From Pedobacter sp. Bi126 (GTDB lineage: Bacteria; Bacteroidota; Bacteroidia; Sphingobacteriales; Sphingobacteriaceae), in NCBI RefSeq assembly GCF_918698245.1, contig NZ_CAKKMS010000003.1, positions 248,001 to 312,000 on the forward strand: 64,000 nt of DNA, given 5' to 3'. Under the pieces are notes generated by a model. It was not told the origin of the DNA and did not search any database. It saw only the letters and a list, made by a program, of their open reading frames with translations. Position numbers and translations under genes: made by a program. Shown piece after piece: positions 15,709 through 41,038 of the stretch; within the stretch, counting starts at the first letter, position 1, and each line of letters begins with the position of its first letter.

Positions 15709-15738
15709 CCTATAATAGTAATGCCAGCCCTCGCCACC

Positions 15739-15797
15739 TAGCCCCGATTGCAGTGAGCATCCCGATCCTTTCATCGGGATAAAACGAAAAGCGGGAA
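15739..15797 (+). ncRNA. Structured intergenic element, copy A (possible Flavo-1-type RNA or repeat)
   Basis: The element opens 'tagccccgattgcagtgagc', has a hairpin 'atcccgat cctttc atcgggat', and ends 'gaaaagcggga'. The outer ends can pair through CCCG/CGGG. A close copy lies at 20467-20525 and a related one near 40901-40971. The layout (tagcccNgat...variable hairpin...agcggga) recalls a widespread Bacteroidota intergenic RNA-like family; I associate it with the Flavo-1 motif only tentatively. The rest of the 223-bp gap around it holds no gene-like frame. Confidence 0.4.
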
Positions 15798-15931
15798 GAA
15801 ACCTGAATAGCTGTATTAAAAATGCGCTTCTAACCTGAACTCGATTAATAACTTGCTTAGATATTTTCGGCTAAATATTAATTGACCTAAGGCCCTTAAT
15901 AATCTAAAGCAATTCAAAACTTACCTTAACA

Positions 15932-26946: not shown

Positions 26947-27771
26947 TTATATCTGCCCTATAAATTCTTTTATTGCAACACCTGGGTTGTCAGTCTTCAT
27001 AAAATTCTCGCCAATTAAAAATCCGTTAAAACCCGCGGTTTTTAATTCCCTGATCGTTTGTGGATTACTGATCGCACTTTCCGAAATCTTTAAAAATTCG
27101 TTCGGGATTTTGTTTACCAGATCGAACGATGTCTGAATATCTACTGTAAAATCGCCCAGGTTTCTATTGTTTACACCAATGGCATCCAGATTTGGGCAGA
27201 TGCTCCGTTCCAACTCTTCCAGGTTGTGCACTTCTAACAACACGTTTAAACCTAAATCTTTTGCAAACTTTCCGAAATCGTTAATCTGTTGAGGTGTTAA
27301 TATTGAGGCAATCAACAGAATAATATCAGCGCCCCAAGCTTTTGCTTCGAGGATCTGATACTCATCGATCATAAAATCCTTTCTTAAGATCGGAATATTG
27401 TTTGCCGCCCGTGCTGCCAGAATATCGTCGGTTTTACCGCCAAAGAAATCTACATCCGTTAATACCGAAAGCGCTGATGCGCCTGCAGCATTATAAGCCT
27501 GCGTTACCTCTGCAACATCGGCAATGCCATTGATTAACCCTTTTGATGGTGAGCGGCGCTTAAACTCAGCAATAATGCCAGTACGGTCTTCGGCCAATAG
27601 AAACTCCTTAAAGGAATAAGGCGTTCGGTTAAAATGTACCGAATTTTCTAAATCCTGTACAGAAACCAAAGCTTTGGCAGCTGCAACCTCTTCCTTTTTA
27701 CGTAATACGATTTTATCTAATATGTTCACCCCTAAATCCCCTGAAGGGGACTTTGACTTTCCATCGTTCAT
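26947..27771 (-). CDS. trpC: Indole-3-glycerol-phosphate synthase
   Basis: The enzyme closes CdRP to indole-3-glycerol phosphate in tryptophan synthesis. 'IIAEFKRRSPSKGLI' holds the catalytic Lys of the TIM-barrel, followed by 'ASALSVLTDVDFFGG', 'LRKDFMIDEYQI', 'GVNNRNL' and a phosphate loop 'ESAISNP'. The start is uncertain. The ATG at 27771 yields 274 residues whose first 14 (MNDGKSKSPSGDLG) are partly encoded by a palindromic repeat. A GTG at 27729 would start 'VNILDKIVLRKKEEV', where homologous proteins are expected to begin. Last of the short trpE-trpG-trpC operon; trpD and trpF are not present. Confidence 0.93.
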   Translation of the reverse strand: MNDGKSKSPSGDLGVNILDKIVLRKKEEVAAAKALVSVQDLENSVHFNRTPYSFKEFLLAEDRTGIIAEFKRRSPSKGLINGIADVAEVTQAYNAAGASALSVLTDVDFFGGKTDDILAARAANNIPILRKDFMIDEYQILEAKAWGADIILLIASILTPQQINDFGKFAKDLGLNVLLEVHNLEELERSICPNLDAIGVNNRNLGDFTVDIQTSFDLVNKIPNEFLKISESAISNPQTIRELKTAGFNGFLIGENFMKTDNPGVAIKEFIGQI

Positions 27772-27844
27772 ATTTCTGTTATAATCAATTTTAAACTTTA
27801 AGTTATTTGGGTTTTCATTCCCCCTTCAGGGGGCTAGGGGGTCG
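27728..27844. repeat. REPIN-like inverted repeats built into the trpG/trpC junction
   Basis: Two inverted copies of an 'acccc(c)ta..cccctgaagggg' palindromic repeat lie at 27728-27756 and 27816-27844, each with its own ccccttcagggg hairpin. The right copy supplies the last codons and the TAG of trpG. The left copy covers the GTG start candidate and the first codons of trpC. The ~60-bp middle is A-T rich and contains the trpC ATG. Confidence 0.7.
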
Positions 27845-28421
27845 TTAACCAGTTTTCCATCATCTGTTTCCCATACTCCGTTAGCACACTTTCTGGGTGA
27901 AACTGTACCCCGCGTACATCCAAAGTTTCATGTCTTAACGCCATGATCTCATTCTTATGATCTCTTGCTGTAATTTTTAAACACGAAGGGAAGTTCTCTT
28001 TACTCACTACCCAACTATGGTAGCGACCAACATTTATGGTTTGCGGGCATTCCCAGAACAAAGGCTCATCGCCATCTACAACAGTTACCGGTGTCGCAAT
28101 TCCGTGCATTGGTCTGCCCAGGTTCAATAAAGTACCGCCAAAAACTTCGGCGATGGCTTGCTGGCCTAAACATACCCCAAAGATACTCTTCGTTGGCGCA
28201 TAAGTTTTAATTACATCCAACAACAAGCCTGCTTCTTCCGGAATGCCCGGCCCAGGTGAAAGTAAAATTTTATCATACTTTTCTACATCAGCCAGATCGA
28301 ATTTATCATTTCTCCAAACCTCTGCTTCATAACCAACTTCGTTAATTAAATGCACAAGATTGTAGGTAAAACTATCATAGTTATCAATTACTAAGACGGT
28401 TTTTTTATCTATATTTTCCAT
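27834..28421 (-). CDS. trpG: Anthranilate synthase component II (glutamine amidotransferase)
   Basis: The 195-residue glutamine amidotransferase releases ammonia for TrpE. Class I triad motifs are visible: 'IFGVCLGQQAIAEVFGG' (Cys nucleophile) and 'VQFHPESVLTEYG' (His, Glu). The start 'VLVIDNYDSFTYNLVHLI' is typical. A PabA role for folate is also possible, as one protein often serves both enzymes. The final residues 'TTP' and the TAG stop come from a palindromic repeat, so the original 3' end has been altered. It is 52 bp after trpE. Confidence 0.95.
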   Translation of the reverse strand: MENIDKKTVLVIDNYDSFTYNLVHLINEVGYEAEVWRNDKFDLADVEKYDKILLSPGPGIPEEAGLLLDVIKTYAPTKSIFGVCLGQQAIAEVFGGTLLNLGRPMHGIATPVTVVDGDEPLFWECPQTINVGRYHSWVVSKENFPSCLKITARDHKNEIMALRHETLDVRGVQFHPESVLTEYGKQMMENWLTTP

Positions 28422-28473: not shown

Positions 28474-29871
28474 CTATATTCCCTCTGCCATTTGCACCGC
28501 TTTACGCAAAGCTGCAATTTTATTGTTCACCTCCTGCATTTCAGTTTCGGGAACAGAATCGGCCACAATACCTGCGCCTGCACGGTAATGCAGTTCGTTA
28601 TTCTTGCTCATAAACGTCCTGATCATGATGGCATGGTTAAAATCTTCATTAAAGCCCATAAAACCAATTGCACCGGCATAAAAATTCCTGCCCAGCTTTT
28701 CGTTTTCGTCAATCAATTGCATGGCTTTATATTTTGGCGCACCACTTAAGGTACCTGCCGGATAGGTATCTGCAACGACTTTAAAAGCACTTACGTTTTC
28801 CTGCAAATGACCGCTCACTTTACTTACCAGGTGGATCAGGTGCGAATAGTATTGTACTTCTTTAAAAGATTTTACCTCCACACGATTACAGTGCCTGCTA
28901 AGGTCGTTTCTGGCCAAATCAACAAGCATTACATGTTCTGCACTTTCTTTCGGGTCTTGTTCTAATTTACGGGCCTGTTCAGCATCTTCGATGTCATTTC
29001 CGCTGCGTTTAAAAGTTCCTGCGATTGGAAAAATGTTGGCCGAATTGTTTTTGATGGTAATCTGCGCTTCGGGTGAAGAACCGAACAACTTAAAATTCCC
29101 ATAATCAAAATAAAACAGGTAAGGAGATGGGTTTATCGAACGCAGGCAACGGTACACATTAAATTCATCACCAGAAAATGCTTGCTTAAATGCTCTTGAA
29201 GGCACAATCTGAAAAACATCTCCACGATAAATATGCTTTTGTAGTTTCTCTACCAGATCCATAAATCCCTGATCGGTTAGGTTCGAACTTTCCTCACCAC
29301 GAAGTTGAAACTTATATTCAGGGTAATTTTTATTCTGGATCAGGTACTCCATTTTTTCAAGCCCGCCCTCTTCTTCTCCTTCGAAAGTATTTTTGAAAAG
29401 GGTAATTTCATTTTTAAAGTGATCGATGGCGATGATATAACGGTACAGGTGATACTGCATTTCCGGAATTTCTTCACCCTCTGGTGTTTCAGAAGTAAAC
29501 TTTATATCTTCAAAATGTTGTACTGCATTCCAGGTAAAATAGCCAAACAGACCGCTCGAAATAAATTTGATTTCGGGTAATTCCGTTTCGCTGAATTTAT
29601 CTTTAAAATCGGCAATTTCTTCAATCAGGTTTTTACTTTCGGTAATCTCTACAGCGCCATCAGGGAAATAAGTCTCCAATCGCGATCCTTTTAAAATAAT
29701 TCCCGCTACCGGATCGGCACAAACAAAACTCATCGAGTTTTCTCTGCTGTGGTAATCAGAACTTTCTAACAAGATACTGTTAGGATACACATCACGTAAG
29801 CGTAAATAAATGCTCACTGGCGTTGTGGTATCGGCAAGCATTTTTTTGTAAGTCGTATTAATTTTATACAT
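28474..29871 (-). CDS. trpE: Anthranilate synthase component I
   Basis: The 465-residue enzyme converts chorismate and ammonia to anthranilate, the first step of tryptophan synthesis. 'ILLESSDYH' near residue 34 matches the LLES tryptophan-binding (feedback) motif. The chorismate-binding domain has 'DVFQIVPSRAF', 'PIAGTFKRSGNDIEDAEQAR', 'DLARNDLSRHC' and 'AGAGIVADSVPETEMQE'. The LLES motif and the Trp-rich leader upstream favour TrpE over PabB. It is the first structural gene of the operon, 59 bp downstream of an attenuator-type terminator. Confidence 0.95.
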   Translation of the reverse strand: MYKINTTYKKMLADTTTPVSIYLRLRDVYPNSILLESSDYHSRENSMSFVCADPVAGIILKGSRLETYFPDGAVEITESKNLIEEIADFKDKFSETELPEIKFISSGLFGYFTWNAVQHFEDIKFTSETPEGEEIPEMQYHLYRYIIAIDHFKNEITLFKNTFEGEEEGGLEKMEYLIQNKNYPEYKFQLRGEESSNLTDQGFMDLVEKLQKHIYRGDVFQIVPSRAFKQAFSGDEFNVYRCLRSINPSPYLFYFDYGNFKLFGSSPEAQITIKNNSANIFPIAGTFKRSGNDIEDAEQARKLEQDPKESAEHVMLVDLARNDLSRHCNRVEVKSFKEVQYYSHLIHLVSKVSGHLQENVSAFKVVADTYPAGTLSGAPKYKAMQLIDENEKLGRNFYAGAIGFMGFNEDFNHAIMIRTFMSKNNELHYRAGAGIVADSVPETEMQEVNNKIAALRKAVQMAEGI

Positions 29872-29930: not shown

Positions 29931-29966
29931 ATAAAAAGCCCGGCGTGTGGTTCTACGCCGGGCTTT
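29931..29966 (-). terminator. trp operon attenuator terminator
   Basis: On the minus strand, 12-bp perfect arms (aaagcccggcgt / acgccgggcttt) with an 8-base loop are followed by TTTTTAT. It lies 33 bp after the stop of a Trp-rich leader peptide and 59 bp before trpE, the classic position of a transcription attenuator. Confidence 0.85.
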
Positions 29967-29998
29967 AATGGTTCTTTAATAAGGTTTAGGTTGATAAA

Positions 29999-30076
29999 CT
30001 ATATTTTGTTCATACGCAGCCAGCGCAATTCGTTCGAATTACTTTGCCAAAGCCATGTATGTATATTGTTGATCAT
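29999..30076 (-). CDS. trpL: trp operon leader peptide
   Basis: An ATG-to-TAG frame of 26 codons lies between a promoter-like box and an intrinsic terminator upstream of trpE. Its 25 residues contain Trp at positions 8, 10 and 19 (three of 25, far above average), in the context 'HTWLWQSNSNELRWLRMNKI'. Ribosome stalling at these codons when Trp-tRNA is scarce would expose downstream RNA. Part of codons 18-19 (CGCUGG, 30025-30020) can pair with CCGGCG in the 5' arm of the terminator (29961-29956), a possible antiterminator. The peptide itself is regulatory, not a functional protein. Confidence 0.8.
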   Translation of the reverse strand: MINNIHTWLWQSNSNELRWLRMNKI

Positions 30077-30082
30077 GAGCAA

Positions 30083-30090
30083 CAAAAATA
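30083..30090 (-). promoter_or_regulatory. Candidate -7 box of the trp operon
   Basis: TATTTTTG on the minus strand fits TAnnTTTG exactly and ends 6 bases before the leader ATG, so the leader would have a very short 5' untranslated region. No -33 TTTG at the usual spacing is seen. Confidence 0.4.
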
Positions 30091-30231: not shown

Positions 30232-30684
30232 CTATGAAACCCCAAAAAACGATCTTCCTGGCACAGCTTTAACCATAAGCAGAATGGCAACAATAATCAG
30301 GATCAATGCCAATCCAAAGAATACAGCAATGGTGCGGTGTTTTGCAACAGCTTCTGTTACCTTTTTCGATTTTGCATTACCAATGGTAATCAGAATAATG
30401 GCAATAAGCATCATTGAAGTATGTTCAGCCTTAAAGTAACGGCCTATGGCATCGCTCATCGGCAATTTTGTTAATGGACTTAAGAAAAAAAGCACCAAAC
30501 CCATCAGGAATTGAATGTGTGCACTGATCAGCGTAAATACATTCAGCTTACGGTTACCTTCCGTGTAAGTTTTATTACCAAACCAACCAGCCAAAGCATT
30601 GATTACAGCAATAACCAATAGAATTAATACGATGTAGCGCCATCCGGAGTGCGCAGATTTTAAGATGTTGTACATTTTTATCAA
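30232..30684 (-). CDS. Four-helix membrane protein, cytochrome b-like
   Basis: The 150-residue protein has four hydrophobic segments, with His residues at or near the membrane boundaries: 'SAHSGWRYIVLILL', 'LISAHIQFLMGLVLFF', 'KAEHTSMMLIAIILITIG' and 'KHRTIAVFFGLALI'. This pattern matches small Bacteroidota membrane proteins often labelled cytochrome b, where His residues could hold heme. No c-type heme motif is present. A second start (MYNILK, at 30675) is equally likely. It is followed, on the same strand, by the trp leader region, but is 155 bp from it and has no visible link to tryptophan synthesis. Confidence 0.6.
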   Translation of the reverse strand: MIKMYNILKSAHSGWRYIVLILLVIAVINALAGWFGNKTYTEGNRKLNVFTLISAHIQFLMGLVLFFLSPLTKLPMSDAIGRYFKAEHTSMMLIAIILITIGNAKSKKVTEAVAKHRTIAVFFGLALILIIVAILLMVKAVPGRSFFGVS

Positions 30685-40689: not shown

Positions 40690-41038
40690 TTTCTTATTCA
40701 AAAACAAATACTGTTGGTAGAATAAGTCTATTTTTTTGGAAAGCAATTCCAGTTTTCTTCGGTTTGGTTCCGTCCCGCTGTTCCTCCTGCCGATAGCTAT
40801 TGATAAAAAAATAACAAATCCCCTCTATCGGCATCCGTGCCATCGGGTTTAGGTGGCCTGGGCAAACCCATAACTGACATTTTTTACCGCTATGGGTTTT
40901 GCATGAGAGATAGCAGTGGAAATCCTTTTTTGATTTTTCTTCAAAAAAGATTGCAACGGATAGCCCGGCCCTTTCCCGATTCATCGGGATTAGGGGCATG
41001 CCCAAATTATTTGCAATAAAATATTTTCCTTATCGCCA
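40690..41038. other. Intergenic block of several hairpins (structured RNA or repeat), copy C
   Basis: No gene lies here. Visible stems are gccgatag/ctatcggc (~40788-40834), aaacccata/tatgggttt (~40864-40899), cttttttga/tcaaaaaag (~40924-40949) and tcccgat/atcgggat (~40974-40990). '...gatagcagtggaaatcc...gattgcaacggatagcccgg' resembles the elements at 15739 and 20467 with a variable hairpin between. The density of stems suggests an RNA-like repeat, not a coding region. Confidence 0.5.

Follow-up and report, generated by a model that had tools for sequence, protein, structure and literature searches.

The trpE upstream region and its predicted promoter

The locus under study is the minus strand upstream of trpE in Pedobacter sp. 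Bi126 (contig NZ_CAKKMS010000003.1), within a stretch of 64,000 nucleotides that is referred to here as the window. The nearest named relatives by trpE are P. psychrodurus, P. borealis and P. alluvionis. Read along the minus strand, a -7 promoter box is followed in order by a leader open reading frame (ORF), a spacer, a terminator and the genes trpE, trpG and trpC. The genes and the elements of the leader are as follows:

30083-30090, minus strand: promoter -7 box TATTTTTG of the Bacteroidota TAnnTTTG type, recognised by sequence
29999-30076, minus strand: trpL-like leader peptide ORF MINNIHTWLWQSNSNELRWLRMNKI of 25 codons, from the ATG at 30076 to the stop TAG at 30001-29999
30053-30055, minus strand: Trp codon 8, predicted sensor, its W-x-W kept in 59/59 Pedobacter loci
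30047-30049, minus strand: Trp codon 10, predicted sensor, in the W-x-W of the same 59/59 Pedobacter loci, with WW or WWW in other genera
28474-29871, minus strand: trpE, anthranilate synthase component I, the putatively regulated gene, ATG at 29871; the leader position upstream is kept among trpE homologues
27834-28421, minus strand: trpG, glutamine amidotransferase, same operon as trpE, assigned by sequence
26947-27771, minus strand: trpC, indole-3-glycerol-phosphate synthase, same operon as trpE, assigned by sequence

The -7 box, the 25-codon leader with Trp at codons 8, 10 and 19 and a perfect 12-bp terminator before trpE had been recognised in a preliminary description of this DNA, and all of them were located where it had placed them. 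The box TATTTTTG is separated from the leader ATG at 30076 by 6 nt, and a TAnnTTTG box was present 3–10 nt upstream of 138 of 162 leader ATGs in the family in comparison to 24 of the 1151 other ATGs of the same regions. Because the G of a TAnnTTTG-type -7 box lies at -5 in F. johnsoniae (PMC6847099) and the gap between box and ATG is 6 nt here, transcription is predicted to start at about 30078/30077, leaving the leader mRNA with a 5' UTR of 1–2 nt. With the -7 box so near to the AUG, the leader mRNA is thus probably near-leaderless. In B. thetaiotaomicron few UTRs are shorter than 10 nt (about 3.7%; PMC7366714), 5.5% of mRNAs are leaderless in Flavobacterium psychrophilum (PMC9723704), and the trpL of Sinorhizobium meliloti is leaderless (PMC7298713).

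Conservation of the leader among Bacteroidia

Homologues of trpE were found in the genus, family, order and class, their upstream DNA was gathered as 209 regions, and a single fixed rule (an ATG-initiated ORF holding a W-x0-1-W cluster and, after it, a terminator) was applied to all of them. A leader was recovered in 192/209 regions and a leader with terminator in 173/209, in comparison to leaders in 3/209 reverse strands and 31/2090 Markov shuffles, neither of which gave a single case with a terminator; as the genomes are related, these locus counts are not independent events. A chance ORF or a chance terminator was ruled out by these reverse-strand and shuffle controls. By group, a Trp-rich leader preceded trpE in 59/59 Pedobacter loci, in 162/169 Sphingobacteriaceae loci and, among the other Bacteroidia families, in 30/40. 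One locus (L022) was counted with leader MISNSHTWQWPGNPKKRCALCV as the correct frame, the automatic pick having chosen the wrong ORF. Three of the ten loci outside the family that lacked a leader (G330, G297 and G361) had a match to the Rfam model RF01692 with a W-rich leader approximately 0.9–1.3 kb farther upstream. The leader motif varied across genera from WLW to WQW, WHW, WW and WWW while the arrangement persisted. Near-universal occurrence in Sphingobacteriaceae and common occurrence across Bacteroidia are the reverse of what the preliminary description had named as fatal to its proposal, namely relatives lacking the Trp codons or the terminator. Two family relatives (L151 and L163) carry trpE leaders with single, separated Trp codons in place of a cluster (MMNQNHNNNWQSLPKRKAGWCF and MIDQNHINSWQKLPKREAGWCF, respectively) and have kept the terminator.

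In the 30 distinct sequences of the closest Pedobacter clade, codons 1–14 (MINNIHTWLWQSNS) were well conserved; past codon 14, two bases present in most other clade members are missing from the window's sub-clade. One and the same RNA stretch around GATTGCGCTGGCTGCGTATGA consequently gives the peptide ..ELRWLRM.. in the window and ..DCAGCV* or something close to it in the other sequences, so that W19 and the tail 'NELRWLRMNKI' are confined to the window's sub-clade. This 2-nt frame difference marks W19 and the peptide tail as by-products, and on the same ground a sensor role for W19 was rejected together with conservation of the tail. Of the three Trp codons first noted in the leader, W8 and W10 have therefore held up as conserved while W19 has not, and the suggestion that the non-Trp part of the peptide might be conserved fails for its tail. 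On this comparative evidence the tryptophan sensors are predicted to be W8 and W10, and the constrained feature downstream of codon 14 appears to be the RNA and not the peptide.

Alternative pairings and a model of attenuation

The RNA between the Trp codons and trpE can be divided into segments which, by computed folding and alignment, take part in alternative pairings:

30011-30061, minus strand: segment 1:2 hairpin, joining the Trp-codon region to segment 2, the state expected without a stalled ribosome (minimum-free-energy structure and consensus fold of 30 distinct sequences)
30018-30026, minus strand: segment 2, GCGCTGGCT, putative 5' half of the antiterminator, which holds the non-conserved Trp codon 19 and pairs with the terminator 5' arm
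29985-29995, minus strand: conserved spacer block ATCAACCTAAA, lying after the leader stop and ahead of the terminator
29955-29966, minus strand: segment 3, terminator 5' arm AAAGCCCGGCGT, from sequence and alignment
29935-29946, minus strand: segment 4, terminator 3' arm ACGCCGGGCTTT, followed by T's; its 3:4 pairs are intact in 30/30 sequences

The terminator AAAGCCCGGCGT-AGAACCAC-ACGCCGGGCTTT (29966-29935) forms a perfect stem of 12 bp that leads into T's, and it ends about 60 nt upstream of the trpE ATG. The 171-nt region as a whole folds at -47.5 kcal/mol in comparison to -30.4 +/- 3.7 for shuffled sequences (z -4.67), and 0/200 shuffles folded as low. Segment 2 can form an antiterminator in which GCGCUGGCU pairs with AGCC[C]GGCGU through nine pairs and one bulged C; an antiterminator at this place had been proposed earlier with six pairs, and the pairing proves to be larger. 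Among the 30 sequences, the variable position of the 2:3 pairing (column 55; T, C or A) formed standard pairs in 28/30 (T-G in 14, C-G in 12 and A-T in 2) with two exceptions, and double changes in the 3:4 terminator were G-C to T-A in three sequences and G-C to A-T in one. The antiterminator segments thus appear to covary with the terminator, with compensatory changes in the alternative pairings.

Folding of the full unbound RNA gave the 1:2 hairpin plus the 3:4 terminator, a state that is mutually exclusive with 2:3. When the RNA was extended to segment 3 and nt 1–36 were masked, representing a ribosome stalled at W8, the 2:3 antiterminator formed at -16.7 kcal/mol, and with nt 1–42 masked (stall at W10) it formed at -15.3 kcal/mol. 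In the finished RNA the terminator was energetically favoured (-31.6 vs -17.5), and the switch would therefore have to be decided during transcription, as it is in E. coli.

Across the family, segment 2 starts approximately 46–54 nt from the AUG in most loci despite differing peptides, and the RNA segment beneath the peptide tail is unaffected by the shift in reading frame. The 2:3 pairing outperformed 95% of shuffles in 77/173 loci (median z -1.56). It is strong in the clade of the window, as in several further genera; in the Pedobacter clade with WQW/WHW and in many other genera it is weak. As the strength of this pairing depends on the clade, the attenuator model is best supported for the window itself. 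The spacer also holds 7-mers shared by many genera, ATCAACC in 72/173 and AACCTAA in 76/173 spacers.

A clustered-Trp leader ORF thus lies between the promoter and the first trp gene, an intrinsic terminator precedes that gene, and an antiterminator that excludes the terminator is freed in the masked folds by a ribosome placed on the Trp codons, this last feature being weak in some other clades. We consider it very probable that the trpE-trpG-trpC operon is controlled by a ribosome-mediated transcription attenuator, and from the sequence we infer its start site, stalling, timing, termination efficiency and tryptophan response. RNA synthesis would begin 0–3 nt ahead of the leader AUG and a ribosome would enter the 25-codon leader almost immediately. 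When Trp-tRNA is scarce, the ribosome would stall at codons 8–10 and mask segment 1, so that segment 2 (30026-30018) could base-pair with segment 3 (29966-29955) while segment 4 is yet to be transcribed; 2:3 pairing would preclude the terminator and trpEGC would be transcribed. When Trp-tRNA is plentiful, the ribosome would advance, segment 2 would be masked or return to the 1:2 hairpin, and the 3:4 terminator would form and halt RNA polymerase about 60 nt before trpE. The attenuator reading of the preliminary description is supported by the conserved leader and terminator and by the compensatory pairings, with the response to tryptophan standing as a prediction. It is further favoured by the nearly constant distance of segment 2 from the AUG and by Rfam's naming of related loci as a tryptophan peptide leader; against it count the weak 2:3 pairing of some other clades and the lack of any match to an Rfam attenuator model in the window.

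It is improbable, in our judgement, that the leader transcript acts mainly in trans, as a small RNA or a small protein gene of the rnTrpL/peTrpL kind, with attenuation secondary. S. meliloti provides the precedent, including a leaderless trpL (PMC7298713), high tryptophan would release a leader RNA of ~145 nt, and the spacer carries the conserved block ATCAACCTAAA. However, the frame of the tail differs by sub-clade while the RNA segments are kept, which speaks against a conserved peptide function, and the alternative pairings that covary act in cis. A still less probable account is that the terminator merely ends the upstream gene, a 150-aa ORF at 30232-30684, and that the Trp codons are due to chance. 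A codirectional gene is indeed present upstream, but a Trp-cluster leader occurs in 192/209 loci in comparison to 3/209 on the reverse strand, the leader has a -7 box of its own, and its spacing and alternative pairings are conserved, and conservation has already refuted this account. Control through a leader that binds a protein (TRAP-like) or a tRNA (T-box) is hardly credible, as nothing apart from the presence of a terminator favours it, in-frame conserved Trp codons after a start codon are unexpected for TRAP or T-box, and a T-box or riboswitch identity was rejected with no Rfam match to either at the locus.

Further leaders in the genome and comparison with known systems

Leaders of the trp, his, thr and ilv operons were examined in this genome. 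The rest of the tryptophan pathway, trpD-F-B-A, lies on a separate contig and is preceded by leader MIIKNLNNNWWWHNEIR and a terminator (L221, minus strand; C1:315613-315742 in the genome itself), an arrangement found in 29/29 Pedobacter loci with enough upstream DNA. This leader scored 42.6 bits against RF01692, below the cut-off of 49. The genome therefore carries what is, by its sequence, a second predicted trp attenuator, on the trpD-F-B-A operon, and it also carries putative Thr, Ilv and His leader peptides. Upstream of thrA (L341:703-840, C3), a Thr/Ile-rich leader MNFNTSIITTIIITTGINQRG is followed by a strong terminator, and the region scored 37.3 bits against RF00506 (Thr_leader), below the cut-off of 55. 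Upstream of ilvD (L342, reverse complement 1257-1390, C4), a branched-chain leader MNINTNIISNLIIVISQKRGGNRCV is followed by a terminator. Upstream of hisG (L256:1226-1274, C1) there is a His-rich leader-like ORF MNLTLNHHLHLHHRR, and a clear terminator was not found beside it. The window also contains two Flavo-1 RNAs (RF01705) above the gathering score, at 15736-15802 and 40896-40974.

Attenuation requires the leading ribosome to match the pace of RNA polymerase, and Bacteroidota are a phylum without Shine-Dalgarno sites. As Trp, Thr, Ilv and His leaders are nevertheless predicted here, the phylum would be suited to testing transcription-translation coupling, for which the predicted near-leaderless start provides a concrete point. 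We regard the case as evenly balanced for a Bacteroidota design in which the mRNA is near-leaderless, the AUG lying 0–6 nt behind the 5' end in most family members, and the ribosome loads without a Shine-Dalgarno site once the AUG emerges, combined with a split pathway under two independently evolving attenuators (W-x-W on trpEGC and WWW on trpDFBA), which might be set to respond at different levels of Trp-tRNA. The regulation itself appears to be textbook regulation in the expected place, and less expected are the predicted near-leaderless start and the two predicted attenuators for a split pathway.

The closest described element is Rfam RF01692 (Bacteroid-trp, 'Bacteroidete tryptophan peptide leader RNA'), which goes back to Weinberg et al. 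2010 (PMC2864571), and leader-peptide attenuation has also been inferred in F. psychrophilum (PMC9723704), so that the remark that trp attenuators have received less discussion in Bacteroidota holds only in part. No match to RF01692 was obtained in the window at the gathering cut-off (49 bits) or at E <= 10, nor, at E <= 1, in those trpE leaders of Sphingobacteriaceae that were sampled, and RF00513 (Trp_leader) reached 16.6 bits in the window, below its cut-off of 41. No Rfam attenuator model detects the window copy, and membership in RF01692 or RF00513 by score was rejected, the cut-offs not being reached. Vitreschak et al. 2004, whose abstract is said to mention Bacteroidetes/Chlorobi, and Merino et al. 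2008 may reportedly cover Bacteroidetes attenuators; our search found no literature on trp attenuation in Pedobacter. The known Bacteroidetes trp leader would accordingly be extended to Sphingobacteriaceae, a family to which the Rfam model is blind and in which leader-peptide attenuation on trpE is, by prediction, nearly universal.

In class relatives where RF01692 matches (e.g. G324, G289 and G356), the element shares with the window copy a position just upstream of trpE and has a WWW or WW leader and a terminator, and both are predicted cis-regulators from the same phylum; the Pedobacter trpE copy differs in its W-x-W, its CCCGGCG-type terminator and its other stem sequences. With the E. coli-type trp attenuator (RF00513) the window copy shares a Trp-rich leader peptide, the 1:2, 2:3 and 3:4 pairings and a terminator before trpE. 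In contrast to that type, it has no match at the sequence level, a Bacteroidota promoter, a predicted 5' UTR of 1–2 nt, split Trp codons (W-L-W) and, in its own clade, a stop codon past segment 2. The trpL/rnTrpL of S. meliloti (PMC7298713) likewise attenuates trpE(G) where the trp pathway is split, and its leader transcript starts at the AUG; no sign of trans action was seen here, and whereas S. meliloti attenuates only trpE(G), trpEGC and trpDFBA of the Pedobacter genome each appear to have an attenuator of their own. In summary, the window copy falls outside RF01692 by score and is, by position and logic, the same kind of element, a predicted ribosome-mediated trp attenuator of a Bacteroidota branch whose kind is already known in the phylum.
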